Part shown: in pieces, positions 1,665 through 46,849 of the stretch
How the letters are laid out: every line of letters starts with the position of its first letter
How positions within the stretch are numbered: the first letter of the stretch is position 1
DNA from: Citrus sinensis
Taxonomy: Eukaryota > Streptophyta > Magnoliopsida > Sapindales > Rutaceae
NCBI RefSeq assembly: GCF_022201045.2
Contig: NC_068559.1
Location: forward strand, 29,085,501 to 29,149,500
Reading direction: 5' to 3'
DNA: 64,000 nucleotides
The notes under the pieces: model-generated
Databases searched by the model: none
What the model was told of the DNA's origin: nothing
What the model saw: only the letters and a program-made list of their open reading frames with translations
Program-made: the position numbers and the translations under genes

Positions 1665-2201
1665 TCAAACTCTAACGATCTTGGCAGCTTTGATCACCGG
1701 ATTTTCTCTCGCGATGGCGTCGCGACCGGCCGATTTATAATCATAGCTGCAATCGTGACGATCGGAGTACCGATGTTCGCCGCAGAACAGCTCCCCGCAG
1801 CGACATCTAAATCCGGTCAATCCAACCTTTCGTCGACAACCGGAGCACCGATTCACAACTCGTTTCTCTACGTTGGCTTCCTTCTCTCGCCGATCCGTCA
1901 ACTCCTGATTTTGACCGGTCGTACCGGCAGCATCGGATGACCCAGACCGGATGATAGGCCGAGATCTCAAAGATTTCTCGCTAGAAAACTTTATGATCGC
2001 TACACCGCTTCCTCCGCCGCCGCCGCCGCCCGTACTCGAACCAGCAACGGCGCTTGCGGTGGTGGTAGCGGTTGCGTTGAAACATTTCTGGCACATATTA
2101 TTTGTGGCTGGATTTCCGGTGAAGCCACAGTTGTTTACGCAAAGAGTCAAAGTTTCAGGAACCTTGAACTCTGTCTCTTCTTTTTCTGTTTTCTGAGCCA
2201 T
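1665..2201 (-). CDS. A20/AN1 zinc-finger stress-associated protein
   Basis: This is an intronless gene encoding a 178-aa protein of the plant stress-associated protein (SAP) family. An A20 finger lies at residues 21-40 with Cys21, Cys25, Cys37 and Cys40 (C-x3-C-x11-C-x2-C). A linker follows, rich in Thr/Ala/Ser with a glycine run near residues 58-64. A C-terminal AN1 finger spans about 119-157 with Cys119, Cys122, Cys133, Cys135, Cys140, His143, His149 and Cys151. Length, domain order and the VIKAAKI tail match the family. SAPs are cytosolic or nuclear, bind ubiquitin or act as E3 ligases through the A20 domain, and are typically induced by heat, salt, drought and ABA. The start ATG at 2199-2201 is followed by MAQKTEKEE, usual for the family. 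A 5' UTR intron is common in this family but I cannot place one. Assigning it to one Arabidopsis SAP (SAP4/5/6-like) would be guesswork. Confidence 0.95.
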   Translation of the reverse strand: MAQKTEKEETEFKVPETLTLCVNNCGFTGNPATNNMCQKCFNATATTTASAVAGSSTGGGGGGGSGVAIIKFSSEKSLRSRPIIRSGSSDAAGTTGQNQELTDRREKEANVEKRVVNRCSGCRRKVGLTGFRCRCGELFCGEHRYSDRHDCSYDYKSAGRDAIARENPVIKAAKIVRV

Positions 2202-2887
2202 TTCTGAGAAAAACTCTCTTTTTTTTCTCCAATTAAGAGCTTTAGAGACAGAGGGGATTAAATCGAAGAGAAGTGAGAGTTCTAGAGAGAGAGGGGGTGA
2301 TGGGGCGAAGGGTTTGGTGTTCGAGAGAGGAGAGTGGGGATTTGAAGGGATTGAGAGGTCGGTAATGGCAATGGAATATGGACCTCATAGAGACGCGTAT
2401 CAAACATTTTGTTGGTGTAGTTTTACGGAAATGACCTTGCCGGTTTGGGATTTACTTTATTCTTTTGCTTGTTCTAGATTGAATCTGACGTGTTAATCGT
2501 CATTATCGAGAAAGTATACAATGTCATAAAGCTTATTTTAGTTATGGTGGAGCCGCGATACAGCCCTGTACGTATTGGACGCGAACTTGGTCCAACTTTT
2601 CGGCCGAAACTGTGCCAAATGCAAGAAATACAATAGGTTCTGCTAGGATTTTACAATACAACAGTAAACTTGCTTGAATTTTAAGCTAGTTAGATTTTGC
2701 TCATTGTTTCGATCTCCTGAGCAGCGTCACCCCAGCTTTTTATGATCTAGTTCCAGAAGTTTAATTAAACGAAGCTGCAAGTATTTTGAACTTTTAAACC
2801 AAATTTTAATAAAACAAGATTAACAACATGAAAAATCTATCATGATACATGGGACCTTTCAGATTTTTTTAAGAATAATAATATAAT

Positions 2888-6065: not shown

Positions 6066-9000
6066 ATGGGAAGCGTGGATGATCGGACATTTAAGGTTAA
6101 TTTCAGCGCCGATGGAGTGGCGAAGTTGAGAGACGGAGTCAAAGATAAACTCAAAGAATTTATGGGCGATTACACTGACGATACACTCGTGGTTCGTTTT
6201 TATTTTTTGTCGAATTATATTGATGTTGTTGAAATCGATTGAATTGTTGCATTGTGTATTTCTATATCGCTTGCAATTAATTTCTTGTCTAGAAAATAAA
6301 TTTTTAGGGTATTATTTGTATTACTGGGGTTAGATTCATCCGGATGATATTTTCTAGAAATTTTGAAATTTGGAGACTCACGGGGTTTTCCAAGAACTGG
6401 AAGTTCTGCTGTTGAATTTGAATTGAGTGCATAAGGTTGAAATAGTGAAGTTGATAGTCCTGTCGGTAGAGGGAATGTTTGTGTTACCTGCTTTTCAGGT
6501 TCCACGAGTTTTTTCAGTTTCAGTCATTTGTAAGGTTTGAGGTTTTAAATGGCAGCTGTTGGCTGTGGAGAATGAGATGACATTGCTGTTCTTTGATATT
6601 GGTTGCTGAGTATTTGCCTATTTGTTCTTGAGTGTATGGAAAATGCTGTGACCTTGTGGGAATGGGGTGATGAAGAATGAATTTGAAGTTAAATCCTAGC
6701 AAAGCCTCAAAGCTCTATATGTTTAAATCTCCGCCTAAATTTATTGGTGGGAATCAGAACTTGTGTAGGTATTTCAATCATGTGGCGACTGTTAACACTG
6801 ATATTTGAAATTTTTTTCTGGAGTATTTGAGTACGTTATCAAATAGGTTCATATAACGGATTTTTGTTTCATAAAATCTACTTGTTTTGGTCTTTAGTTA
6901 TTGTTTTCCATTTGAGTCAGATAGCTTGCAGGTTAAGATTCATACTCGGAAGGTGTTATGTTGCTTTTTGGGTTGTTAGATTCGGGCTTTCTCTCTTGCT
7001 GGCACAATATTGGAGTGATGGTTGGGCTGTAGTAGCCTGGAGAGCGGATAAGTTATATGAATCTTTGATACCCGCATTCTACCATCCTAGGATAAGTTAT
7101 AATTAAATGATGTTTATCCTCTGTTCCCTATATGTATAATGTGTTTGTGATTTTTCGATGCTTTCAGTCGCTTTCATGGTTGGGTCATGCCAATTTATCA
7201 CATGATATTGCCTTCATATCTCAAATATGAAGATCTTGGGTTTGAAGTATTTCTTTAATATGGGGGATTTAAGTATTTTGATTTTATCGATGCTAGAATT
7301 TTTTCCCCCCTTATTTCTTGATTCGCATTGGCAGGAATACGTTATAGTTTTACTGAGAAATGGCAGGCGCAAGGAGGAAGCAAGGAATGAGTTGAATGTG
7401 TTTTTGGGGGATGACAGCACTTCTTTCGTATCTTGGTAATTCGATTTATATGTTAATTTAATTGGAGAACCTGAGCTTATAGAAATTAGTTTGTCAGCTA
7501 TTATCTTTTAATTCATGTTCGTCTCTGAAAGTGGTTTATATATTTACTTTGAACAGGTTATGGGATCATCTGGACTCAAATTTAAATTTGTATGTTCAGC
7601 CCGAGGAATCTCAGAGGCATGAAGCATCAGAAATAAAACCTACATTGGGGGACCATGCTGGGAAGATTGATTCTTCCCTCCTGGATTCAGAGTCCGAAAG
7701 AGGAAAGTCTAATAAATTATCGAGGAGTCGACACAATAGGGAATGGAAAGGATTAGTGAGGGATTTGGATGAACCACCCCCACCTCTCCGGAGATTTGAG
7801 GCTGAGAATACCCATTTTGAGGAAAAAACACATCGCATAGTCACTCGTGCCAGAGACTCTCCTTCGCCTCCTCGACAAAAATTCCAAAAGAAAAGGAGCA
7901 GGCATGAGGAGCGGCAGCACTCAAAGGTTTGGATGTTTCTGTTCCTTCTGTTGATCAATTGATCTCCTCTACTTTGTATGTTAGAGTAACCAATGTGTTA
8001 CTTTTGTCTCTACTCTACATAATCAATTCAAAGCAAGATGTAGTTTTATAATATTTTTCTTTTATTTTTATTTGTTGTGTGGATGCTGAAATGTTTATAG
8101 AAACATATTATCATTTTGGATTCAGACTTCGTGGCTGGTTATGTGGCTTGGGGTTAATTTTAATGATGTTGGATATCTCATAGTAGAAATCTTTGTAAGA
8201 TTGTAATTCTTGAATATTATAATTTTTGAGGGCATATTGGTTGTTCTGATGCTATGAGCTTCTTTTGAGGATTTTAGCTGTACTCTTACAGCATTGGTAT
8301 ACAGTTTCATCTGATCAAGGCTGATTTCTTTCTAATCCATTAATGAACTTCATGACAGAGGGAAGTGGGTCAATCAACCATTGATGCTCCCCGACGGTTA
8401 CTTCAGTTTGCAGTTCGAGATGCGGTGGGAACTACAAGGCCATCTAATTCAGGAAAAGAACCTTCACTGAAGCGCCTTCGTTCTGTGGTGTCAACATCTA
8501 CTGGAGAATCAGAAGCGATTGAACGTCCTCGGAGGATTCGGTCAGTTGCAACAGTTCCAAATCCTTTGGCAACTGTCATTAAAGCTGTGGCAGAAGCTGC
8601 TGAAGATGTAAAAAGGATTAAATCTGGGGGAAGTGTGTTTGATCGACTTGGTCGTGGTATGGATGTATCAGATATGGCTGACGAACCACCAGAATTCGGA
8701 GAAGCTGTTGTTGAAGATGATGAATATGGAAGCTTTAGCCGAATTCAGGAGCAAACCGGTTCAGCATATTATGATAGATGTGACTATAGTAGACAACATG
8801 ATGGGAACATGACAATGTTAGAAAATGAACCGGCATTGGCCTTTGACTCTATGTCTGACAATGAAGGGTACGATGATATCAATGTTACGGGCCATAGAGT
8901 CACAGATGTTTGTCAATCTGGATCATCTGATGCAAGCAAGGGTGATTTTATGATGATGCATTACAATGTAGCCAAAAATGCTGATTATGAAATGCAATTA

Positions 9001-11657
9001 ACGCAGAACAAAGATCAGGATCAGCCTGTTGCGGTGGTAAGTGCTTCTCATAAGATGGTCAAGATTTCTGCGAATGTAAATACTTGGAAACCTCATCAGG
9101 AGTTGAGAGTTCCAGAAGCTGATGGTCGAAAATCTATTCAGGAGATTGAGGCACGTAATGGAAAACCTGGCTTGCAACTAATGAAGGAGAATAGCAACCT
9201 TGTTACAGTTGGTAATGGAAATGTAAGATGCTCTTACTCATGTTCGCATTGCAAGGTCTTTAGTTGCTTGTAATTTTCCTTGTGTCATACTGATCAATTT
9301 TCTTTATTAGTTATATTTATTTCCTGACAATCTTTTTGCACTGCTATTGTTGACAGGCTAAACCTACCGTACGTATTCATAAAGAATCTGAAAAGGCACT
9401 GCCATCTGTTTCTGGTGAGTTTTAAGCTCGTGCTGTTTTTGTTAGATGATTACTAGGCATATTGCAAATTTGCAATTTTGTTGTTATCTTTGTTATTATT
9501 TTCGCGTCACTCATGTCTGTGATCTCTTTAGCCCCCTCCCCCTTATTTTCAGTTCTTTGATTCTTTTTATTCCATTGTGACTTCATTTTGCTCATCTTTG
9601 TTCTGCGTTTCCCATGATATGAACTTTTTTTTTTGGGGGGATGGTTTTTGCAGGTTTATATACTGCTGGTCGTCCTCAAGAGGACGCTGATTCTCGAACC
9701 ATTTTCATCAGCAATGTACTAGCTTACACTCCTGACCTTGTATGTTAAAAAAAAAAGAATTTTTTGGGTCTCTCTTTTTGAGTGGCTTTTGTTTATTCTT
9801 CTACAGGTTCATTTTGCAGCTACCAAGGATAGTCTTTCACGTCATTTTAATAAGTTTGGGGAGGTTCTGAAAGTGGTTATAGTCACTGATGCTGCAACAG
9901 GGCAACCAAAAGGGTAAGGATGGTCTTTCACTTGCTTGGGTAAAAGTCTTCTTTCAATCTAATGATAAGACATTTACTGGTACTAAATCAAGATATTTTA
10001 CCAGGTCAGCTTATGTGGAGTTCATGAGAAAAGAGGCGGCAGACAATGCATTAAGTCTGGATGGAACCTCCTTTATGTCTCGGATTTTGAAGGTATTTAG
10101 ATACCTGGTGATTTGATTTTCTGAATAATTTTTGAGGATAGTTTTCCTTCTATGAAACATAGGGGGTGGGGGAAGGTGGGGGTGTGTGCTCATGAAATCC
10201 CTGGATTTTTGAATGGGCAGTGAAAATTTTCTGATAAGTGTAACAGTTTTTTAATTGTTCACATTGGCTAGAATAGTCTCAATAGCACTGTGGTGTTGAA
10301 TTCGCTGATTGGTTGTTGCTTAATAGTTAATGATTTATGTTGGGGTGGTCCTGAAGTACTATTGCTTTCAGTGCCTCATGGGGTGTGCTCAAGAACCAAA
10401 TGCTAATTCTGAAATGGTAGGGAAATTTTATGGGGTATCAAAGTGGCGTCCCCTAACTAGTGAATTTTCAATTTTAAATATTAGGCTACCTTTTAATGAA
10501 GTATGAATAAAGCAGCAATTGTATCTGAGTCTCTTAAAATTTTCTGTGTCAAATATTAGCAAATCCTTTAATGAAAAATGATAAACTAGCAATAATATGG
10601 AGTCCTGTAGATTGTGAACCTATTTTGGCATGTGTTGTATCCCTTCTATTATATATAACAATTAATAATAATTTTCACTTGGATCTTGCTTAGAATCTAC
10701 CATAAGTAAGTTCACGGCTTTGACCATCTAAGTTTATCCTTCTACACTTATTTATTGAATTTTAGCTAAATTTTGGGATGACTTAGAATAGAAATATTGA
10801 GGAAACTGCCAAGTTTTCTAGCTGTATTGTATCATTTTTGCATTGGGGACACGTGTTAGAATCTTGCAGATATCTAGAGTTTCGTTAGTTTTTTTTTTAT
10901 GCTAGAAGAAGTACCTTACCTGTGGAGTTTGGGGAATACATGAAGTTGTTGAAACTGTTAAATAATATCATTTAAAATTGACGTTATTTGGTCCAATTGT
11001 ATCTTTTGTATATGCATTATGCCAAGACAGTATTAATGTTTTCTCATTCCACTTTGAACGTGCACATGGCATTACATTAGGCATTTTTATGATTTGGATG
11101 GGGGATGAGAAACCCCACCCTGTAAACACCAACCCTTACCCCTATTATTACCCAAACTCAGGAGATTACGAGCACAAAGCGCCTTGAGGGCTAGCCAAGC
11201 TACACCCTAGGGGCCACATGGCAGTAGGCTTGAGTCACTTAATTTTATATATTTGCCCCTTTTCTGCAACTTTTGAATTGGTTGCTTTAAAATGCGATGA
11301 CGCTGCTGAGCCTCAACTATCTTTTGTAATTGGTGTTTCCTGTAGGTTGTGAAGAGAAGTGCTGCTCATCAGGACACTGCTCCCCTCATGACTTGGGGCC
11401 GGGGTGCACGGGGTTCTCCATATACTGCAGCTAGGTTTACCCGAGCTCCTTTCCCTAGAGGCATTCATGGGGCATTTAGACCTCATCTTCCTATTAAACC
11501 TGGTGCCAGAAGTTTGCAGTGGAAGCGGGATGCTCAGGCCTCTCCATCTGATAGTGGTGCCCAAGTTCCTGGGAACAGTGTTCCTTCTCCCACTGCTCGT
11601 AGCCTCACCTACATCAGACCAGAGCTTAAAACTTATGGGAGTTCGGGTACCACTTAG
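6066..11657 (+). CDS. Nuclear RNA-binding protein: Nab2/ZC3H14-like N-terminal domain plus PABPN1-like RRM
   Basis: Splicing nine exons gives a 695-aa product: 6066-6191, 7335-7435, 7557-7926, 8359-9222, 9357-9414, 9654-9715, 9807-9913, 10005-10092 and 11346-11657. All borders are GT..AG and the total is 2088 nt in frame. Residues 1 to about 90 resemble the PWI-like fold of Nab2/ZC3H14 poly(A) RNA-binding proteins (key stretches VLLRNGRRKEEARNELNVFL and FVSWLWDHLD). A long, charged, probably disordered middle follows. An RRM spans about 521-594 with RNP2 IFISNV and RNP1 KGSAYVEF, closest in pattern to nuclear poly(A)-binding PABPN1. The tail is Arg/Gly/Pro rich (WGRGARGSP, PFPRGIHG). A role in nuclear poly(A) RNA binding or mRNA export is inferred from the two domains. 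I see no CCCH fingers, unlike animal ZC3H14 or RBM26/27. The start ATG at 6066 is the third in-frame option after an upstream basic run and gives MGSVDDRTF, the natural start of the domain. Confidence 0.85.
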
Positions 11658-13845: not shown

Positions 13846-14102
13846 CCTATCCCTAAAAATGATATGATTCTCCAAACAAATACAGCATATACGATCAACA
13901 GTCGTAGAAAAAAAAATTACGATATTGGGGAATTGTAGGAAAGAGATCTAAAGGATCGTAATTTTAATTCAGGGGCATTGACTGAGACTGACTGCGGCCT
14001 TCTATTCGATCACATGTGTTTTATGTGATGGGATCCCCTGTTTAAATCTCTGATGCGCCCACCATCTTCCCGTGTGTTTTTGTAGAAAGCTAAAATCTCA
14101 GA

Positions 14103-14978
14103 ATGGCCGCCATCGCTTCCCGTAGATTTTCCTCCAGACTCTTCAAACCCTCTTCATCTTATTTGTCGTGCGCTTCTTTCATAACTCATAACCGTAATCC
14201 TAACCCTAGATCCTCCTCGAATTCAATTTTCTCACAACAAAATCCCTTAGACCCTAACTCCAAAATCTTATATTTCGTTTCAGCTTCACCCTTATCAGAT
14301 CCCCCTACCTGTTTGGTCCCTCAAACGCCTTTAAATCCAAAACCTATAAATCCCCATCTGGGTCTCATTATTAGGTCATATTCATACTCGACTGCCAATA
14401 AAAATCACGACTTTTTGCATCATCAACTACAAAGCCCCAACCCCATGAATTATACAAGATCACAGTCGAAACCCAGATTTTTCTCTGAGGAGCCGCAGCA
14501 AGGTCAAAGCCCGAGTGAGTACCCCAGTCAAAACCCTAATTTCAAGCACCAAGAAATTGAAGGACCAACAGTAGAGCGTGATTTATCAGCTTTAGCTAAA
14601 GAAACCAGACAGGTGCTTGAAGAAATGATGAAGAAAATTTACAGTCTCAGCAGAACCGTTGCCCTTCTGGGTCTGTTCCAATTAGGAATAGGAGCTTGGA
14701 TTACATACATTACGCAAGCATCACCCATAATAGAGGTCTCAATGCAGAACGTCGTGGCTTTTGGATTTCCATTTGCTTTGGCGCTTATACTGAGGCGATC
14801 TTTGAAGCCAATGTACTTCTTCAAGAAGATGGAGGAACAAGGTAGATTGCAGATTCTTACTTTGACACTTCAGGTTGTTAAGAATTTGAATGCTCTATTT
14901 GCTCGGGTACACGGGGTTAGTTTGCTTTGTATTGCAGGTTTGTCATCTGGATTGTTGTTCCATTTGTTGGCTAGATAA
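14103..14978 (+). CDS. Mitochondrial membrane protein of unknown function
   Basis: This intronless gene encodes 291 residues. The first 100 or so are rich in Ser, Arg, Asn and Pro with no acidic cluster and begin [14 protein letters not shown], a convincing mitochondrial presequence. A low-complexity Gln/Pro/Asn region follows to about 155. A helical segment (159-185, [20 protein letters not shown]) then leads into three hydrophobic segments at about 184-204, 216-231 and 270-290, so the C-terminal half is probably a small inner-membrane domain. The protein ends just after the last segment (LLFHLLAR). I recognise no named family or catalytic motif. The ATG at 14103 is the first in frame and starts the presequence. 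Both the hAT and foldback elements lie within 1.4 kb upstream. Targeting is inferred from composition only. Confidence 0.8.
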
Positions 14979-19739: not shown

Positions 19740-20880
19740 TTTAGTCTTTACCAGTGCTCAAGCATTCACCCGCTCTTACTCTCCAACATCTGTCCCCTTT
19801 CGAACCTTACAGTACTGCCGCAAGGTCAAGGATACACTAAGTCTCACATTCTTTACGCCCATGGGGACTATGTTTTATTAACTTTAGCTGAGTCTAACAG
19901 TGGTTTTAATCGTTTATCGGGCAATCATCAACGTTATGTGAATGAATTTTACTCATTAGTGCCTGAATTGGCTAGTACTAGTGCCTGTAAGCAAGCTAAA
20001 CTTCTATTGCTTGCCGTGCAACTTAACAGTTTTCTCTAATGATGGAAGAACATTTAGCAATTTCTTAAAGACATGGGGCTCGGTATGTAGAGACTCTTCT
20101 TGCTTGAGCGAGCCATTTGGTTGTTTGGCGATAGAAGACACAAATGGGCTGGAGGGAATTTTCCTGAATGAGTGGTGCAAGCGAAGACCTTCACAAGAAA
20201 TGGTCGTCATATGCAATGGAATGGCCAATTTAGATTTATCAAATACGGTTAGGGCAACTTTTTTGTTAGCCCGAATAATATGGAGAAGATCAAGCAATGG
20301 ACTAACTTGCTCTTTAATTTGGGTTTGTTATGTAAAAGCAGAAGCAAAGGTAAATGAGCCAGGTAAATCATTGGGTGAGGATCCGTGTTACTTCGGGTTC
20401 AATGCGGGCGGTATAACCACTTTGTACTATCGGATTCCCACAACTCATTTTGGTAATTGCTCAGGGTTTGCACGTTGCTTGGCAACTTGGGATGAATTGT
20501 TAGGAGAAGATGGGATCGTTGTTGCAGCAAATGTGATAGGAAGCACGGTTACAGAGCCGGATGGGGAAATATTAGGAGGGGCGGAGAAGTGGATTTCGGA
20601 TTATGAGGTGTTTTTTTGAGTCAAAGCTCCATGTTATGGTTGCTGGGTCACCAAAGTTGGAGTTTTATTATGAGACTGATTTTGGGTGGGGAAAGCCTAA
20701 GAAAATAGAGGAAATTTCAATAGATAAGATGAGAGCAATTTCATTTACTGAGAGCAGAGATGTGAAGGGTGGCATTGAAGTTGGTTTGGCTTTAACTAAG
20801 GCTAAAATGGATGCTTTTACAATGTTCTTCAGTGAAAGTCTTGATGTACTTCAATTAAAGAAAAATAAATTATATTTGTT
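19740..20880 (+). pseudogene. BAHD acyltransferase pseudogene, copy 2 (malonyltransferase-like)
   Basis: A nearly full-length relative of anthocyanin or phenolic-glucoside malonyltransferases, read in at least three frames. Recognisable blocks are LLSNICPLSNLTVLPQGQG and LTLAESNSGFNRLSGNH (about 19760-19920), YSLVPELA, then a jump to DGRT.SNFLKTWGSVCRDSS, NGLEGIFLNEWCK, VRATFLL, TTHFGNCSGFARC, ELLGEDGIVVAANVIGSTV, DFGWGKPKK (20678 onward) and ESRDVKGGIEVGLAL. The HHAVLDG segment with the catalytic His of HXXXD is missing: the sequence passes from LTVFSN straight to DGRT. A frame change falls at the T run near 20608-20616. The N-terminal 40-50 residues are not recognisable. It could not be an active enzyme. 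Functional BAHD members transfer acyl groups from CoA to flavonoid glycosides in the cytosol. Confidence 0.85.
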
Positions 20881-22111: not shown

Positions 22112-23047
22112 GACCTGCCAACGTAAAGTGGCAGCACCGAAAATGGGAAATCATTTGGCTTCGTATACGTTGTTCCAGTAAAAGATTGGAAGAAGAATGT
22201 ACATGACTAAGGCAAAACCAACTAAAGTATTGACAATGGCAAACAATGGTGTCGCTAATGGACTTCCCAAAAAGCTAGAAACCGTAGACCAGTCGATTCC
22301 AATAGCACCAATGCCTAGGCCACTCAGTCCTGAACCTATTTGTTGAGCTGTGACAAATCTTTTCCATATCCAGCAAACAAAAGAAAGAGCAGTAAGGGAA
22401 GGGAAAAGGTATCCTGGGACGATATAATAAGCAAAACACGATACAAACACCACGAAAAAGAATTGTATCCTGGTAAGTCCTCCCTTTGGCCTGTTCTCTT
22501 TTTCATGTAGTGCCCTGCAATTTTTTTTTTTAACAGATTGAATAAATGCATCGTGTTGCTTCAAGTTTAAAAAATGGTGGAATTTGGAAGATGAATGAGC
22601 ACCTGAATAGAGAAACTTGAACCAGGTTTGCTGGCCACCACATGTATGGATAGTCCACGAGGTATCTTCTGAATATACCAGCCCACCCATAATCAAGCAT
22701 CTGAATTGCCCAAAACAAAATATAAAAATCAAAGTTGAGAAACTTTTAGAATGTTTTGTAACTGTAGTACTAATGTAAAATTGTAAATATACCTGAGTTG
22801 TTAGTGCAAGCAACAAGGGCGCTACCGGATGTATACTTCTTTTATAGAAAGCCCTGAGCATTGCAATAATATGGACAGCATAAACACCACTAGCTCCACA
22901 GCTAGCGAAAATGGTGATCAAAACATGTTCTTTAATATTGAAAGGCCCCGGATTAAATGAGAATGACCAGTTCGTAACAGCCTTTTGTCTATCTCTAGCA
23001 TCCCAAGCATCAGAGCTAACTCTTCTAGGACCTGCCAGCGTAAAGTT
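22112..23047. repeat. Direct 19-bp repeat flanking the OPT fragment
   Basis: GGACCTGCCAACGTAAAGT at 22112-22130 and GGACCTGCCAGCGTAAAGT at about 23029-23047 differ by one base and have the same orientation. They lie just outside the two limits of OPT homology (about 22140 and 22990). Such a pair can mark a break-repair or insertion event that brought in the transporter fragment. Confidence 0.65.
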
Positions 23048-23272
23048 TCTTCTCTCTTCAGGTACTGATCCTTCATTGGAGCTTCCTTTCCGCGACAAGC
23101 TTCGCTCAGGTGGTTCAACTCCACCAAGTACAACAGTCTTTTCTGGTATTGCCCATATTCCAGAATAAACCAATTGAGATTGTTTGCAAAGCTTGGTTTT
23201 TCGGTTTGGGAGAGATGGGAGAAAGAGAGATTGTTGGGGGAGAGATGAGAGAGAGTGGTATTTTGGTCTCAA
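22151..23272 (-). pseudogene. Chimeric fragment: oligopeptide transporter (OPT) piece joined to an unrelated leader
   Basis: Three exons keep proper splice sites: 23272-22793, 22700-22603 and 22514-22151. Spliced, they give one open frame of 313 codons ending in TGA. From VTNWSFSFNPGPFNIKEHVL onward it is a clear plant OPT-family proton-coupled oligopeptide transporter, with FRRYLVDYPYMWWPANLVQV, ALHEKENRPKGGLTR, FPSLTALSFVCW and GLGIGAIGIDWSTVSSFLGS. It covers roughly residues 110-330 of a normal protein of about 730 residues, with some five membrane segments. The stop falls where the family has Lys before FPIF. The first 90 or so residues are not OPT: they are Ser/Leu/Lys rich, look like a plastid transit peptide, and have no ATG at the front (the frame opens with TTG). 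A 19-bp repeat flanks the OPT part. I read it as a captured gene fragment, probably non-functional. Confidence 0.75.
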
Positions 23273-23274
23273 AG

Positions 23275-23660
23275 ATTTTTTTATGACTAATATTAATAGA
23301 AGTTTATTTGGGGGTTTAAGATAAAAAAAGTTAAAATTTTTATGATTATTGATGTAAATTTCCCCATTCTGCCGCGAGTGAAAGATATTTGTGTGGGGTT
23401 TGACCTAGCCATGGGTTAGGGGAAAGGTAGGTTAACGGTTGGATAAAAAAGAAGCGTTCGCCGAACTACGAAGCAAGAAACCATCATCAGCAGCAACGTA
23501 TTAAAGTCTTTAAGTCTGAACTACCGCCACGTTAAGGGTAACTAGCCGTTTTCTTAACGGACTAAATAAAAAACACATATGTTGTGTTCTGTTCTCTCAA
23601 CGTGGCCACTTCCCCCGCCAGCTGTCCACGTTCCTGTGGGGCCCCCACGCGCAAATGCTC
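23275..23660. other. Upstream region of the AG-peptide gene
   Basis: This stretch separates the chimeric OPT fragment from the plus-strand AG peptide and should hold the latter's promoter. No coding sequence is seen. The right part is GC-richer than its surroundings (CCCCCGCCAGC, GGGGCCCCCACGCG). Confidence 0.5.
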
Positions 23661-25739: not shown

Positions 25740-26429
25740 CTTTCCACATGAAGGTCCCCTCAGGCAACTGGCCAGCAATCCTGCATTTGGCACCATACAC
25801 GAGCTGAACAGAGCAGAGAATGTGATAAACAATGTACATGCATCCATAACAGTTATTGCTTCAGTATACACCTAATAGAGAGTGCAAATTGTCAACAATC
25901 ACAAATATTCTGAATTCCAAGAATCACAAGAATGAAATTGCAGGGCATACATAATTGAACAAGTTTTTGTTAATCTAAATGCTTTCCAAATACAGTTTCA
26001 TCAAAACTGATTCTTTCAATCTCCACAATTGAACACATAGAATATCATGATTGTGTTACCAGAAGTTAAAAAGCCATAGAATATCAGATAACTGCACCTT
26101 ACCTCAAAAGATTACAAGAGCATGACACTGACTATGTAGGACGACTTCCACATCAATGTTGCTAATATATCTTGACATTATTAGATATCCTGCATACATG
26201 AAGAAAGGGTGTCAGCAAGCCATAACTATGCATATGACAGGTTGCTATAACTGGAGACTTCTCATAAATGTTAAATTAAATGAGTAAGTGATATCTCTAG
26301 ATGGACCGTAGTCAATGCCATTGTTGATTACCAAATGCCTAGGATGCCACTGCACTTAATTAGTTGTTGAAAACACAAAAGAGGATTCATTTCTTGATAA
26401 CTTACGCTGGAATGCTTTAACAACTCTTT
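25740..26429 (-). other. Probable spliced 3' UTR of the distal Makorin transcript
   Basis: Downstream of the distal Makorin stop (26430), an AGC|GTAAGTT donor lies at 26406/26405 and a matching acceptor (TATGCAG|GATATC) at 26190/26189. A further donor (GAG|GTAAGG) lies at 26103/26102, and a candidate acceptor (TGTTCAG|CTCGTG) near 25806. These suggest two introns within the 3' UTR. It is an inference from splice motifs only. Confidence 0.4.
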
Positions 26430-29400
26430 TCACCTTATGTGCATATTAGTAAGGAACTCTGACAACCTGAAAAAATTTAGTAGGAAAATATATTTCAAAA
26501 AAGATAAAAGAAAAATGAGCTTTTAAACCAGAGTAACTGTTAATTGAGATAAATTAGTGAACCTGATATCTTTAGCTATCACAGTGCTTCCATCGTCTGA
26601 CCCAAGGTGACGCAGAACAACTTCCTCCAAACGACCATCTGTATAGGCATGCTGCAAAGATGGAATGTCAATAAACACAACCAAATAACAGCCAAAACTT
26701 CACAGATGAATAGTAATCAATGGTTAGCAACAGGCGTCAGAAAATCATACACATAATTTCCAGGCAAGACAATGCCAACATCAACTTACTACTAAATTCC
26801 ACTAGAGAGAGAAATCCAAACCATAATAAACTAGAATTCATTATATATTCAAAGGAAACAAACCAAAAGCTTCATCTTATTCCATGATGCAAAATGTAGT
26901 GGACTATCAAAACACCAAGATGAACGACAACTCAAATGTCCAACACAGAATGGACTAGAGATATCATAGCGAGTTCTAATAACTTAATCTAAATAACTCT
27001 CATAATCACTCGAGTCACTTGAGTCAAAATCTAGTTGCGTTAATAACAAAGCCATCTCCACATCCAAAGCCATTCTAACTTCATTTTCAGCATCAAAAAA
27101 ATCAGGTTCATCTTCCCCAAGTAAGTCCCCGAACGCATCAATAAATGAATCCATATCCACAACATTGGATCTTGATGGAGGTGGCCTGAATGGAGGTGGC
27201 CTGCGTGGAGGTGGCCTGTGATATTTCCACATGTAAGAACCAGGCTTGACCATATGCTGGAACACAACACAACATTATATCTATTAATGGAGACATAAAG
27301 CCAACGTTCTCTGCTACTAGTAGCTATGAAAATAAATAAATGAAAAAAAAAAAGGAAGAACATATGGCGCACAACACTTGGAACAGAGAAGTCATTACTC
27401 AGGTGATCCATTTCAACAGAACCTCAAGGAACAGCAGCAAATAGATGCGACTGATAAAACAAACAGCACATTTATGCTCTACACGTATTCTACAACTATC
27501 AATGAAAATCATTACAAGGAAAAAAAAAATGCAACATAAACTGATTACTACAATAACTCAAGAAGAGAGGGAGAGATGGCGGCACAGACATAAGGGTGGT
27601 ACGAATTTCACTACCCTCAACAATGAGATTCAACATATTTTAAAATGTATTTCAATTTGATTATTGTAATAACACTTTCTCCAAAGCACTGCAAACTATT
27701 GTTGCCTTTTAACTCCAAGAAAATTCTTAAGATTACCAACATCCACCTTCTACATTACCATAACTAATCAAGAGTAACAGACTTGCTCCATTTCAGTCCC
27801 ATCTTTCATTTTCATGCTCTTTTGGCCAATTCAAATCTTAACATGGCAACGTTGTACCAATTGTTGAAGAGCTAAATAACTGACCTTGACAGATTTCGCA
27901 TGGACATGAATTATAACAAAACAAACATAGCACAAGACAAGATCTTTAAAGCCACATGAAAAGATAACAACACACCCTTATTATATAGCAGACGTGGAAA
28001 TGGATATGGATCTGACATACAGTATATAGACATTTCCCACTCTCCAACAGCAATGTTACTCCCATACATAGCTGGGACCAGAACTCCTGTTTCAAAATAA
28101 GTTTTCACACTGAACTCCCAAATTGAGGTCATGGGCTGAACTCATGTTCACTGATACAAATGCTTTATTGGCTCAAAAGCCCAGTTGTTGAGTTCAAAAT
28201 GATCATCCAAATGACTAAAACCCTACCATAGCATTCACCTACAGCACATGATACAGATTTCGAAAACATTATTTCCCTGATCTTTGATCAGGGGGGAAAA
28301 AAAAAGAAAAATTAAAGCACCGAAAAAGACATCCAATTGACACTCATTGAACATAAAAGAGGAGGAAAACAGCATAGCAATAATAAAGAACTTGCAAAAT
28401 TTCATGCCTTCAACAAGCATTTATAACCAGCTTCACACTACTAAGGGGTAAAAGGGTAAAAATAAATAACTACATAGCTGCAACTGATATTGACAGTTAA
28501 GTTACCTTGTAGAAACAACTAGTTCCAAATGGGCAGTTGCCATTACCAAAGTTAAAGTGCTTGCAATCGATTGACCTGCAAGAAACGAAACCAAAAAAAA
28601 AAAAAGGTTATGTCCAAAGCCATGACTAAAAGAAAAGCACCTCAAGTCTATAATTATGTAAACTGCCCTGCTGTAAAATTTTAAAAAAATTGTCTAAAAT
28701 CGTGTAAAATGCATAACAATAAATTAGAAAACAATGATGAGCAATGGGTCAATAGATTCCAGAATTACTTGAGTTTCGACTTGTAGCTATCAATAATTTC
28801 CTGTTTTTCTTCTGGTGTGTAATACCAAATGACACTTGGAATTACAAAATATGATAGCTTCCGGCAAATTGGACAAGCCCTCAGTGCAGTATTGACATCC
28901 ATTCCAGAGGTTGGAGAACTACTACGCCAATTCCTGATACAGGATATACAGAATGGATGATCACATTCAGATAGCAACCCAAATTTTCGTTCAGCTGCCG
29001 TAGGCTTTGATAATACACGATCCAAACACACACTGCATTCAATTTCTTGGCTACGTCTTAGAGCTTCAAGGTGCTTTTGCTTTTTCTCACAAGATTTCAT
29101 ATGCTCTTCTCTTTCTTCAGGTCTGAAAGGATGCAAGCATTGCTTCCCACAAGTTGGGCATGTGTCTCCATGAATATGAGGACATTTTTCCCCACGAGGA
29201 CAATTACCAGCAGCAGCAAATGAACAGATAGAACGGTCAGCAGGTTTTAGATTCCTGGGCTCGTCAACCTCATCATTCTCTAAAGAATCATTGCACACAG
29301 ACTCCGGATTCCATGCTGTCTTATTAGGAGGAAGAAAAGGTCTACTCAGTGCAGATAGCTCTGGCATGACACCTGGAACTTTAGTTATCCCACTTGATGT

Positions 29401-30224: not shown

Positions 30225-30980
30225 ATGTTAGAAACAAGAGAGTACCCGCTCCCTATCCCTAGGGTTTTTGGCGGTCGATGTGTCTTTTTGGGACTGCAAG
30301 TACATTATTGCCCCTGCCCCCTATCTATTGCAATTATGCCAAAATTTATTATTGTTTTCGGTGAGGGTCGGAATGAATTTCAGAATTTTGGTATTACCAA
30401 ATTTGGGACTTGAGAAGTATTCTCATTGGTTGAAGCTAATTTTTTAAAATTATACTTCTCATTGGTTGAAGCTAATTTTTTAAAATTATATATCATAACA
30501 ATTTTGTTGACAAATTATTTGGGTATGTTTGTTATGACGCAATTTAATATATATGTGCATGTGAATGAAGCGTGTCTTAGCTCAGGACCTCAGGTAGATA
30601 TAAATGTATATGAGAAGAGAATTGGATTACTCATAGGTACTATTTTTGGGTTTATAGCCCCAATGCTAGGGACTCATTTTATCTCTTATTCAATTTTTTT
30701 TTAATATGGTACATGTACCTCTCAGAAATATTGAAATGAGATCTAATTTATTTTTTAGTCTCTATTATCCTTAAAGAAAGTTGTTAAAAAATCAAAGCCC
30801 TCAAAAATGGATATTCATAGTGTAGGAACTATTTGAATTAAAATTATCTCATAATCTAATCTTGTACTGAGCAGTGATAATTTGTGTTAATAAATAAATA
30901 AATAATAATCTAAAACTTGAATACATGTAAATAATTCTGACCAAATTATAACAAAGTTTTGCTTTTCAAGCAATCATGAT
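30225..30980. other. Promoter-side intergenic region of Makorin
   Basis: A CACGTG G-box lies at 30201-30206, about 180 bp upstream of the Makorin ATG. A 36-bp tandem duplication follows at 30421-30491. The rest to the hAT element is AT-rich and without coding signal; the open frames at 30225-30413 and 30426-30704 look random. Confidence 0.5.
30421..30491. repeat. 36-bp tandem duplication, two copies
   Basis: TCTCATTGGTTGAAGCTAAT followed by TTTTTAAAATTATA occurs at 30421 and again at 30457, nearly identical, so it is probably a recent slippage or unequal-exchange product. Confidence 0.9.
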
Positions 30981-32155: not shown

Positions 32156-32245
32156 AGGTAATTAAAATAAATAAATAAATAAAATAAATCGCATAAAAAT
32201 CAACCAACAGCAGCTACCACATCCACTAATCTAAGCCCACATTCC

Positions 32246-32956
32246 ATGGCCGCGATATTCTCACCGTCGTCCCCCGTCATCTCTTCGTCCGCCACAACCA
32301 CCGCCTGCAAAACCCCAACAAAACCACCCCACTCTTCTCTCTTCACACCCACCAAACAATCTCTCACTTCCCTACTGACGGCTACTTTAGCAACCACCAC
32401 GCTCTTAACAGCTTCGCCATCATTAGCTGAGCCTGCACAAACATACCACATCTACTACGGCACAGCCGCCAGCGCAGCAAACTACGGCGGCTACGGCGGC
32501 AACTCCGACAAGAAAGCCTCCGCTGAGTACATTTACGATGTCCCAGATGGATGGAAAGAGCGCTTGGTGTCGAAAGTTGAGAAGGGTACAAATGGAACAG
32601 ACAGTGAGTTTTATAACCCTAAGAAGAGAACTGAGAAAGAGTACTTGACGTTCTTGGCGGGGTTTCGGCAGCTCGCGCCAAAAGATGCTGTGTTGAATAA
32701 TCTTGCTTTGAGTGATGTGGATTTGCAGGACTTGCTAGCGAGCGCTGATAAGGTGGCTTCTGAGGAGAAGAAGGATGATAAAGGACAGCTTTATTATGTG
32801 TATGAGATTGATGGTGTTGGTTCTCATAGCTTGATAAGTGTTACTTGCGCTAACAATAAGCTTTATGCACATTTTGTTAATGCACCGACGCCCGAGTGGA
32901 ATCGAGACGAAGAGACCTTGAGGCATGTTCATGAATCTTTTAAGACTGTTCAGTAA
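32246..32956 (+). CDS. PsbP-family thylakoid lumen protein (thylakoid lumenal 19 kDa-like)
   Basis: An intronless gene for 236 residues. Residues 1 to about 42 are Ser/Thr/Pro rich with almost no acidic residues, as in chloroplast transit peptides. A hydrophobic stretch (43-58) ending in SPSLA-E (59-62) follows, a thylakoid-transfer signal with a lumenal cleavage site. No twin Arg precedes it, which suggests the Sec rather than the Tat route. The mature domain (about 62-236) has a PsbP/Mog1-type layout: YIYDVPDGWKERLVSKVEKG near the start and LYYVYEIDG...HSLISVTCANNKLYAHFVNAPTPEW near the end, closing with LRHVHESFKTV. It lacks a full PsbP N-terminus, so it belongs among the PsbP-like/PPD lumen proteins of the photosynthetic apparatus rather than the oxygen-evolving-complex subunit. 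I think it is the TL19 type, but that is from memory. It is transcribed away from Makorin. Confidence 0.85.
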   Translation: MAAIFSPSSPVISSSATTTACKTPTKPPHSSLFTPTKQSLTSLLTATLATTTLLTASPSLAEPAQTYHIYYGTAASAANYGGYGGNSDKKASAEYIYDVPDGWKERLVSKVEKGTNGTDSEFYNPKKRTEKEYLTFLAGFRQLAPKDAVLNNLALSDVDLQDLLASADKVASEEKKDDKGQLYYVYEIDGVGSHSLISVTCANNKLYAHFVNAPTPEWNRDEETLRHVHESFKTVQ

Positions 32957-38900: not shown

Positions 38901-39995
38901 TTTTACATGATCTAATGAGTGCTTCATATCTATTGATCACATAAATTGTTATTATGTACTTTGAAGTAGTATTATTTCTGAAAGAGGTTGGCTGGTGACT
39001 GTTTGTTTTTGTGGGACGGGCATATTTCAACTTTACTGCATTATAGGTTGCAATTACAAATGAAACCTACTCGTATGACTAGGCCCTTCTTTTACATAAT
39101 TAATGGGTGCTTGATATTTTTTTTTTTTTTGGTAGAAAACAGGAAAATGTCTTGAGATTTAGTTGTCTCTGTGATTTTGATGTTTCTTTGCTTCAAGTTC
39201 TTCATACAGTTGCTGAATTATTTTGGCAGGGGTCGTAAGTGTAATCCTCTTCGACAAAGACTAGATAGCTATGAGTACACTGTGAAGCAACATATTGTCG
39301 GATCTCTTCTCTTTACGCCACTGCTACTTCTGTTACCAACAACTTCTGTTTTCTATATTTTCTTCACCATGATGAACACAAGCATCAGCCTTATCTGCAT
39401 GCTGATCGAAGTCATTATATCTATTATCCATGCCACACCTTATATTAAAATTGTACTCTGGTTGGTGAGACGAAGAAGATTTCCAGCTGGGATATGGTTT
39501 GAGATTGTAACTTGTCATAGCAATAGCGTTAATTCTCCAGAGATTGTTAGCCTTGATAAAATCATTTCACCTTCTAAAAATTCACTGCACCAAGAGAATA
39601 TAAGTGGAAGATCTCATGCTCTGGTTTCAATTCTTCAGAGCAACTTTTTTACTATAGGTGAGGGGCCTTGTGCAAATTTCCTATTTCTTCCAAGGACACA
39701 CTGGACTAAAATGTAGAAGTGTTTGATTATGCTTGTTGCATAAGAAGGATTGGCTGTTCTGGTTTTTTATTTACTGGATTGTATTTCTTTTTGACTTTGC
39801 GCTAACACGAATACGAAAATATCCTGCAGGACAAATAGTCATACCTCACTACAGAAAGGTTTTTACTAGGGTTTCAAGATCATATTTTGCCACATCAGCT
39901 TATGGAGTTCTTACTGGGAAAAGGTGAGTTGTCTTCCCTATCCAAGCTTTATGTTTTACTGATTCGTGTGCAGGTGTGGATCTTTCAAACTGTGA
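35955..39995 (+). CDS. GPI1: GPI-GlcNAc transferase subunit GPI1/PIG-Q
   Basis: Nine exons give 691 aa in frame: 35955-36128, 36756-37151, 37283-37423, 37520-37623, 37698-37919, 38307-38801, 39230-39657, 39830-39923 and 39974-39995. The protein is a subunit of the ER-membrane complex that moves GlcNAc from UDP-GlcNAc to phosphatidylinositol, the first step of GPI-anchor synthesis. The N-terminal half is soluble (MRKQCRIWWPKHL start). The C-terminal half matches the Gpi1 domain: many membrane segments, RSQSCVEYAEKAALRKHSMW, the loop RGRKCNPLRQRLDSYEYTVK, and FPAGIWFEI. The last exon codes only CGSFKL and is assigned by its acceptor and the immediate stop, so the final seven residues are less sure. 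Intron 6 contains a local duplication. Reading frames and junctions are otherwise intact. Confidence 0.92.
38857..39118. repeat. Duplicated block of about 72 bp within GPI1 intron 6
   Basis: GTTGCAATTACAGATGAAAC at 38857-38929 recurs as GTTGCAATTACAAATGAAAC at 39047-39118. Both copies continue through ACTAGGCCCTTCTTTT and GGTGCTT/GAGTGCTT with few differences. They are 118 bp apart and in direct orientation. Confidence 0.85.
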
Positions 39996-44025: not shown

Positions 44026-46168
44026 TCACACTGAGCACTCACCATCATGCTCAATTTCAGAAGCTGGCTCATCATCTTCTTCAAAGCATTCAATACCTAA
44101 TGCCGCATGGCCATGGCCAAAGGCTTTAATGTGATCTTTTAAAGACCTTTTGTGCTTAAAATCCGATCCACAAACGCAATACCAAATTCTGCCACAATTT
44201 TTCTCATGAGTTCTCCAATCACCTTTAACTGCAAATGGCTTGCCACATTTTCTGCACATGAAAGGTTTGATCCCATGCTTTCTCTTGTAATGTGTTTGGA
44301 GAGTTCTAAAGTCTTTGAGAGGCCTAGCTCTTGGATGATCAATGTTATGCTTACATCCTTGTGCACAGCAGTAGCAAGGGAGTTTTAACATGGCTGATGG
44401 CTGGGATCCTCTTAAAGAGTCAGGTCCTTTTCTGTACTGAGATCCATGGCCCCACATGTGCATCTGCAATAATATTGAAGCAAGCAAGCAAACAAGCCCA
44501 TGATGATGAGAGAGAGAGAGAGAGAGCGAGCAAAAAGAGGAGGCACACATGATATAGCCAGACTGCCAGAGCTAAGAATATTAGAATAAAGCAGCTAAAA
44601 GTTTTGCAATATGCCACATTGAGAGAGAAGGAGAAAGACACACTCAATTATGTATATATGTTACAGCATTTAGCAACCCTAAATTGATAGAAGAAACAAA
44701 AAGGTACGTTAGTGGACATTCAAAAGAACATAAACTGAGCAAACCCATCTATAGAGATTAGAGAGTAGTGAAAAAAAATAAATTAAATTTTAATACAGCA
44801 ACTTGACTTTAAACTTCTTTGATCATTGATAATTGTGAAATGCATTTTGATTATCTGACAACACCTCCTAGACTCTAAACTATTCATCTTATTGTATAAA
44901 ATTCTACTTTGAATAGTTCTAAGTTTCTTTAAAATGCATCTCAATAAGAACATGACTTGCAAAGGGTTTGTAATGGGTACTCTCGAATACGAAGCAATGT
45001 CAAATCCTAATTTGTTGTGACCATTTCCAGGTAAGTTTGGTTTGTCAGATTGGGATTATTTTCTACTAATCATACAAAGCCGAAGGCATCTGAGTTCAGG
45101 GTTTATGTTTAACAGACGTGAGGAATTGGGGTTTGTGAATTTAACTCTTGAGGAATTGGTGTTTGTGAATTTAATTGTGCAACACTTAAAAGAAAAAAAA
45201 AAAAAACATTGGGTGCAGAGCTGGAGTGTGCAGATTGAGAACGGTACAGGTTCTTGATGATCTAAGATCATCATCTGAACCCTGGAAGCACCAAAAATTT
45301 TCATCAGTCTTCCTTTAAAACATTATGGAAATGGGTGGTGAGCATGCACAATCTTCAAAGCAATATTGAAAGCATATGAGGAACATCTCATGAACTTTTG
45401 CAACTATCACACACAAGAAGCCCCAGCTTTGAGCTGAGTTTCTGTTGAAGCTATAGATGACATGCTCATGTATCAAATCTAAAACCGGGAAATGAACGTG
45501 CAAAAATTAAAACTATGTAGGAGAAACAAATTAGCTTCGTATCTTGTTAGTATAAAATTAATTAATAAAAAGATGACGTACAAATTAAATTCAGAAAAAG
45601 GGAGAAGACTATATGTACAAACCTGCAAGTTGTTGTAACGATTAAAGTTCTTGGAGCAAATAGGACATGAGAATTGTGTTGGACCAATGAGAATCTGAGA
45701 AGCGGTAGGAATCCAGTACTGGCCTTTGTTTAATCTTTCCAAACTCATGACTACTCCTTCCTTAATCTTATCCTCTGTTATTGCCGTCACATCTGCAGAT
45801 GATGAGAGCCTTATTGAGTCCAAATCATGATCAGAGCTGCTGCTAGGGTTAGGGAGCCCTATGTGTAGTGCCACAGTTACAGTTTCTTCACCATCATCAT
45901 TAGTACAGTTTACCTTGTCCTCTTCCTTGGCAGTACTAACGAAAGGTTCTTGTTGATCTTCTTCTTGTCTCCGAGCAGGGCTTAAGCAGTTTATTAGAGG
46001 AAGTGCTTCTTTCAGAGGAGGTGAAGGAGGAGGAGGAGGAGGAGGAGGAAGATAATTTTGGCTTTGAAAGATAGACTTGTTGCTTATGATGTTAGGAGAG
46101 TAGTGAGGATGAAGAGGCTTGAAATTGAACCACCCATTGAAGAGATTTGATGAATAAGGATCTGTCAT
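44026..46168 (-). CDS. WIP-type C2H2 zinc-finger transcription factor
   Basis: Two exons, 46168-45623 and 44463-44026, encode 327 aa. The start [14 protein letters not shown] matches the conserved N-terminus of WIP proteins, so I use the ATG at 46168. A proline run (41-52) and an acidic/serine-rich region follow. The WIP domain begins near residue 150 with [20 protein letters not shown]. Its first C2H2 finger (Cys168, Cys171, His184, His188) is split by the intron after NNLQ. Further fingers include [12 protein letters not shown], the [12 protein letters not shown] linker, [20 protein letters not shown] and [20 protein letters not shown]. The acidic tail [16 protein letters not shown] is usual in the NTT/WIP2 group. 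WIP factors are nuclear regulators of fruit transmitting tract, root and vascular patterning, or seed-coat pigment in the TT1 branch. Which branch this is needs a tree. Confidence 0.93.
45120..45179. repeat. 30-bp tandem duplication in the WIP gene intron
   Basis: GAGGAATTGGGGTTTGTGAA at 45120 and GAGGAATTGGTGTTTGTGAA at 45150 head two adjacent 30-bp copies with about three differences. They lie in the single intron (44464-45622). Confidence 0.85.
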
Positions 46169-46849
46169 ATTGAAATCTGATGAGGACAAAAGAAGAGAGA
46201 TCAGCTAGCTACACTACTTTGGCTACCATCGACCACAGTGATGATTTATATACACATACATAAACATTTTTGTGTGCGTGGATGAGTTGAGGGAGAGAGG
46301 GAGAGAGAGAGAGAGCGAGAGCTTAGGGTAAATTTGATAGAGGAAAAGAACAGATTCATTAGTGGTTGGTAAAAATAAAAGAGTGTTGAAAGTCAAGAAA
46401 TTACCCCCTGCTGCAGCAAACAGAAAGGGGTTAATATTAGAAAGTAAAAGCCGAAGGAGAAAGTCAGAGATTAGACCTGCAGCAGCTTGTCTCCCAAGAG
46501 ATTGTTGCATCACATACATAAAGATTAAAGAGAGAGATAGAGAGAGAAACATTCTTTTTTTCTTTTTCTCTGAATTTTTTTCCAAATTTTATTTTTGTGA
46601 TCAATGCTATCTTACTTCCAGTAACTCAAGAGGTTTTAGGGTAGAGGCCATCCGGCATTTGCTTTGGTGCGCGTGTTCAATGTTCCATTTTCATGCACAT
46701 CCCTTCCTGCATCCACTGTTTCTATTCCACCATCACTCCATCTTCTTGATCTTTCTTGCTTCAGTCAACAAACTCACAAACCCATTTCACTTTATTTACT
46801 ATAACTAGGGTTTTTCAGTTTTTATATCATCACTTAGTTCGAATCCTCT

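Follow-up and report, generated by a model that had tools for sequence, protein, structure and literature searches.

A Citrus sinensis Makorin gene with two candidate 3' ends that each complete its fourth CCCH finger

Introduction

The short form of CPSF30 arises by intronic polyadenylation. The gene (At1g30460) encodes a plant CCCH protein that exists in a 28-kD form and a 65-kD YTH form, as described in PMC4496715. In Arabidopsis ERF4, alternative polyadenylation leads to a pair of protein isoforms, and the EAR repression motif is present in the one called ERF4-R (PMC6409740). Among the Makorins, human MKRN1 is produced as four isoforms (MKRN1-long, -short1, -short2, and -short3) through alternative splicing and variable polyadenylation; the short1 and short3 forms are reported to be missing either an N-terminal segment or the C-terminal zinc finger along with the 6 residues that end the RING (PMC9024132). 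A shortened MKRN1 is described as acting on translation in rat neurons by way of its PAM2 motif (PMC6805484 and PMC7001992). Most plant Makorins, according to PMC3022923, have three N-terminal CCCH fingers, a Cys-His motif, a RING, and one C-terminal CCCH finger.

Here we describe a gene for a Makorin, an RNA-binding E3 ubiquitin ligase with a RING and four CCCH fingers, that occupies the minus strand from 30020 to 26430 of the window, by which we mean the whole stretch of 64,000 nucleotides of Citrus sinensis DNA that was analyzed. On the basis of its sequence, we consider it likely that this gene, which is single copy, has an alternative last exon that is used via intronic polyadenylation.

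Results

Structure of the shared body. The gene has four exons that both predicted forms would share, all on the minus strand and separated by introns that start with GT and end with AG. Exon 1 (30020-30010) begins at the ATG (MSKR) and ends at the donor AG/gtgatc; exon 2 (29725-29638) encodes the first CCCH finger, and exon 3 (29526-28769) encodes the second and third fingers, a candidate Cys-His region, and the RING, both being supported by splice sites, Pfam, and motif. Exon 4 (28575-28506) ends at the donor AAG/gtaact, one codon before the last ligand of the final finger. Together these exons (30020-28506) comprise 927 nt, or 309 codons, a multiple of three. The encoded protein has four CCCH motifs, with starts at residues 7, 35, 134, and 290. 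Three of the fingers lie N-terminal to the RING, with Pfam CCCH families over their cut-offs, and a Cys/His-rich stretch, seen by eye, lies between the third finger and the RING at residues 156 to 179. The C3HC4 RING matches PF00097 over residues 197 to 254 with 29.3 bits (cut-off, 21), and one further CCCH finger follows it at residues 290 to 310 in both isoforms, where the best stretch for PF14608 covers 289 to 310 in form A and 289 to 311 in form B.

A candidate PAM2-like motif of 10 residues, comparable to the PABP-binding motif of animal Makorins, is present in the linker that connects the second CCCH finger to the third (residues 90 to 99; 29358-29329, minus strand). It lies within the common part and hence would be carried by both isoforms. 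The pattern L-x3-[AS]-x2-F-x-P, which was fitted after the motif had been viewed, was present in 44 of 20000 shuffled linkers. In human MKRN1, the PAM2 residues mutated are A169, F172, and P174, and the A/S-x2-F-x-P spacing of the plant motif equals that of these residues (PMC6805484); A169S is there one of the three motif-breaking changes, however, and the plant protein has S at that position, which is a point against PAM2.

Genomic setting. Searches of the Citrus genome itself covered 299.7 Mb in 11 contigs, with the window on contig C4. The 399-residue protein described below gave strong E values only at its own exons, the next-best match (E = 0.007) being to the first two fingers, and the sole strong match of exon 3 was to itself; the Makorin gene is single copy in this genome. 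A paralogue candidate on contig C5, matched by finger plus tail at E = 1.02, was rejected as a chance match to a poly-lysine frame that has no CCCH finger. No relative of the 253-residue exon 3 frame or of the exon A tail was found in viral or prokaryotic contig collections, a scope that makes the missing relatives uninformative on conservation in plants.

Other genes in the window, as identified by Pfam, encode an A20/AN1 zinc finger protein (1668-2384, minus strand), an OPT oligopeptide transporter (22154-23404, minus strand), a PsbP-like protein (32183-32953, plus strand), Gpi1 (39156-39713, plus strand), and a C2H2 BIRD-IDD/STOP2-like protein (44029-44571, minus strand). Four open frames of 219 to 305 codons have no Pfam match at an E value of 0.001 or lower: 8356-9270, 14094-14975, and 19960-20616 on the plus strand and 45482-46204 on the minus strand. 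A perfect tandem repeat (period 36, 2.0 copies) is present at 30420-30490, upstream from the Makorin gene. Between 25000 and 31500, no known RNA element scored above its gathering score.

Two terminal exon sets complete the fourth finger. Downstream from the exon 4 donor there are two in-frame terminal exon sets, each with an acceptor and a stop. Exon A (27256-26984, minus strand; 273 nt including the TAA stop) is preceded by tgttgtgttgtgttccag and opens with CAT ATG; it encodes the His and a tail with KPGSYMW, an RPPP-rich part, and an acidic part and would give a protein of 399 residues. The second set comprises B1 (26651-26563, minus strand; supported by splice sites and frame), which is preceded by gacattccatctttgcag and opens with CAT GCC, and B2 (26466-26430, minus strand), which ends at a TGA and with B1 gives a protein of 350 residues. 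Tail B is presumably the usual plant Makorin tail, as found in the rice and Arabidopsis proteins.

In both forms, His310 is the fourth ligand of the finger C-x10-C-x5-C-x3-H (residues 290 to 310). The position of the intron, one residue short of the finger's final ligand, means that the His has to come from the terminal exon; because either exon brings it, the finger and the RING would be kept and the tail alone would differ. The original prediction had described this anatomy, and our recheck reproduced it exactly: the coordinates and lengths of both 3' ends (399 and 350 residues), a donor one codon ahead of the last ligand, and two terminal sets that each begin with a His codon behind an acceptor AG, with totals in frame with the 927-nt body.

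Past the stop of the B form there may be a 3' untranslated region (UTR) intron on the minus strand (26405-26190), with donor-like GTAAGTTA at 26405 and an acceptor-like site before 26189. Its donor lies about 25 nt past the TGA and so is probably too near the stop to cause decay.

Could the arrangement be due to chance? An exon that is unused, or that reflects splicing noise, would be an intronic open frame that happens to follow a cryptic acceptor, and the gene would then yield the 350-residue protein only. We asked how often such a frame would bring a His with it, counting as acceptor-like any site at least as good as the weakest of the gene's own six acceptors. In the 1854-nt intron, 16 acceptor-like sites were listed, the last of which is that of B1; among the other 15, only that of exon A is followed directly by a His codon, and only there do more than 61 open codons follow. 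Dinucleotide shuffles of the intron gave an acceptor with at least 90 open codons in 97 of 3000 cases and one with a His codon first as well in 2 of 3000. The prediction that a chance open exon would rarely supply the missing ligand is borne out by these shuffles; the thresholds were set post hoc, 90 codons being exon A's own length, so that such figures are optimistic.

The same count was made over 34 sequences (304,314 bases, both strands, window included), in which 13 of the 33 fetched loci had been chosen for their likeness to CCCH, Makorin, or MKRN1_C and a few loci overlap. There were 2987 acceptor-like sites, with CAT or CAC next in 123, and at least 90 open codons followed in 2 of these 123: exon A and one site in a locus that weakly resembles the RING part (L015).

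Does exon A read as coding? Composition bears on the same question. A phase-specific, third-order coding model was built from 32 long frames (25,164 bases) and 143 noncoding stretches (155,692 bases) of the same genome sample; the coding training set is small, and transposon frames are possibly among it. Under this model, exon A scored 0.321 bits per codon in frame, compared to -0.142 and -0.593 in the other two frames, and all three antisense frames were negative. This score falls between the 25th and 50th percentiles of 79 coding windows, which are the training data themselves, and was reached by a fraction of 0.0004 of 5000 noncoding draws; among 263 other frames of 85 to 130 codons in the sample, 8% scored at least as high.

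Dinucleotide shuffles with in-frame stops removed (2000 for each exon) reached the exon's own coding score once for exon A, 24 times for B1, and 106 times for exon 3. A statistic based on the contrast between frames was not significant for exon A (reached by 141 of 2000 shuffles), and it failed likewise on B1 (273 of 2000) and on exon 3, the coding nature of which is undoubted (1327 of 2000). Without its proline-rich part, exon A was less extreme on both measures (37 of 2000 on the score and 412 of 2000 on the contrast). The evidence that exon A may be translated now, or was so in the past, is good but short of decisive.

The rarity of the arrangement (2 of 3000 shuffled introns) and the coding-like composition (1 of 2000 shuffles) speak against splicing noise. 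In its favor are the post hoc design of the chance tests and the lack, for exon A, of any Pfam match, significant PDB match, or further copy in this genome. We regard an unused exon A as unlikely.

Character of tail A. The tail encoded by exon A shows a sharp change of charge. Its first 30 residues include 10 P and 7 K/R with no D/E, and its last 60 include 19 D/E with 1 K/R. A 15-nt tandem unit inside exon A (27218-27175, minus strand; 2.9 copies) encodes the RPPPx repeats in frame, the unit being a multiple of three. A single-sequence AlphaFold2 model of tail A has helices at residues 35 to 45 and 53 to 76 and is of modest confidence, with a mean pLDDT of 67.3 and a pTM of 0.22. No Pfam family matched tail A, and a search of the PDB with the fourth finger plus tail A gave five matches, all insignificant (E values of 0.14 to 4): four over the finger (the best at 0.14) and one, to a kinase chain, over the tail (1.2). 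In the Citrus genome, tail A alone matches only itself. A repeat origin of exon A was rejected, the 1854-nt stretch having no second match in the genome; an old repeat might nonetheless have escaped the nucleotide search, which passes over words that are very common.

It is plausible that tail A is a protein-binding element, with the acidic part offering a surface for partners. A role in RNA binding would be unlikely, given that repulsion is to be expected between RNA and the acidic part.

Comparison with the animal Makorin tail. The acidic tail had been likened to animal Makorin C termini, which raises the question of whether exon A might encode an ancestral tail common with animal Makorins, tail B then being a plant novelty. 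The make-up of tail A, acidic with short hydrophobic stretches, does resemble that of the C terminus of human MKRN1. However, the alignment of the two scored 32, a value equalled or exceeded by 297 of 2000 shuffles of the whole tail and by 1137 of 2000 when shuffling was windowed, so that the likeness is compositional. In addition, the Pfam model of the animal tail, MKRN1_C (PF15815), had no match listed at an E value of 10 or lower to either the 399-residue form or tail A, in a search run with the HMMER filters on, which drop most matches above an E value of about 0.1. Across the Citrus genome, PF15815 gave one subthreshold match, at 15.1 bits against a cut-off of 25, and this lay on a different contig.

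Tail B scored 45 against the same human sequence, through HAYxDGRxEE, and this was reached by none of 2000 shuffles of either kind. Judged by this alignment, it is tail B, rather than tail A, that begins like the animal protein. The supposed relationship of the acidic tail to animal C termini is not upheld, and an ancestral origin of tail A is very improbable.

Possible polyadenylation and fate of a putative exon A transcript. For a stable exon A mRNA, polyadenylation should occur upstream from B1. Three candidate poly(A) elements follow the exon A stop on the minus strand: AATAAG (26881-26876), AATATA (26849-26844), and AATGAA (26842-26837). The T fraction is 0.53 in the 30 bases that start 10 nt past the start of each hexamer, and such hexamers are about as frequent after the stop (3 in 332 nt) as in the part of the intron that precedes exon A, where there are 10 in 1249 nt. 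A donor-like GTAAGT at 26789 would define a 138-nt intron that ends at the B1 acceptor (26651).

These features bear on a different reading, in which exon A is a nonproductive (poison) exon that is spliced onward without being polyadenylated and that, through nonsense-mediated decay (NMD), tunes the amount of the 350-residue form. With splicing from 26789 to B1, about 190 nt would separate the exon A stop (26984) from the junction downstream, so that the transcript would likely be a target for decay, and the poly(A) signals past the stop are weak, as this reading would have it. A decay exon, on the other hand, requires neither the His nor 90 open, coding-like codons, both of which would be superfluous in it. 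For this reason, we favor an alternative last exon and judge a poison exon to be improbable.

As an alternative last exon, exon A would act as follows. Splicing at the first acceptor (27256), followed by cleavage and polyadenylation before B1, would lead to the 399-residue protein, with its RPPP-rich linker and acidic helical tail, whereas skipping of this acceptor in favor of 26651 and then 26466 would lead to the 350-residue protein, with its short tail. Both junctions would be used, and the choice of poly(A) site would presumably fix the ratio of the isoforms.

Discussion

Our analysis of this Citrus Makorin gene points to two 3' ends that lie behind one donor, both of which would complete the fourth CCCH finger. 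The original prediction had read this arrangement as a switch of tails. The part of that reading that concerns gene anatomy stands, namely, the two in-frame ends, the preserved finger, and the coding-like exon A; the part that related tail A to the animal C terminus does not.

Should both ends be in use, the same catalytic and RNA-binding body would come with either of two tails, in an E3 ligase that is conserved among eukaryotes and the role of which in plants is poorly known. This would provide a clean handle on tail-specific partners, and it would explain the usefulness of an intron placed one residue ahead of the last ligand of a finger. If exon A is unused or nonproductive, this is an ordinary matter. 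We also speculate, as a possibility that is itself rather doubtful, that the arrangement is a conserved and regulated switch, in which the choice of an intronic poly(A) site over a distal one swaps the short tail for the RPPP-acidic one and thereby gives one RNA- and poly(A)-associated E3 ligase two sets of partners, with the RNA-binding fingers, the PAM2-like motif, and an intact RING common to both isoforms. Animal MKRN1 acts at poly(A), and so, were such a switch to exist, the very process that the protein monitors could in turn tune its gene.

Among the matches listed in a literature search that covered few subscription plant papers, no title or abstract start described alternative 3' ends for a Makorin of a plant. 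The peptide string HTVKPGSY was absent from the text searched, the search being one of literature rather than of sequence databases. An automatic annotation of the 399-residue form may well exist elsewhere.

The closest described systems share parts of this arrangement. In its three N-terminal CCCH fingers, RING, and C-terminal CCCH finger, with a candidate Cys-His motif in between, the Citrus protein has the arrangement given for the Makorins of rice and other plants (PMC3022923). Like human MKRN1, it would be one Makorin with differing C termini; unlike in the human gene, the finger is completed by either Citrus end and the RING stays whole, whereas the human short1 and short3 forms are reported to lack the C-terminal finger and the end of the RING, or an N-terminal segment (PMC9024132). 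The pair CPSF30 and CPSF30-YTH offers a plant CCCH RNA-binding gene with two transcripts and two C-terminal parts, as is proposed here; the difference is that the longer CPSF30 form gains a known domain, YTH, (PMC4496715) and tail A has no recognized domain. ERF4 is likewise a plant gene with two protein isoforms that depend on poly(A) choice, as we propose for this Makorin, but ERF4 is a transcription factor, and the motif that it gains or loses is a known one (PMC6409740). The alternative last exon is therefore a known kind of mechanism, and the variant seen at this locus is a split finger that is completed by either end.
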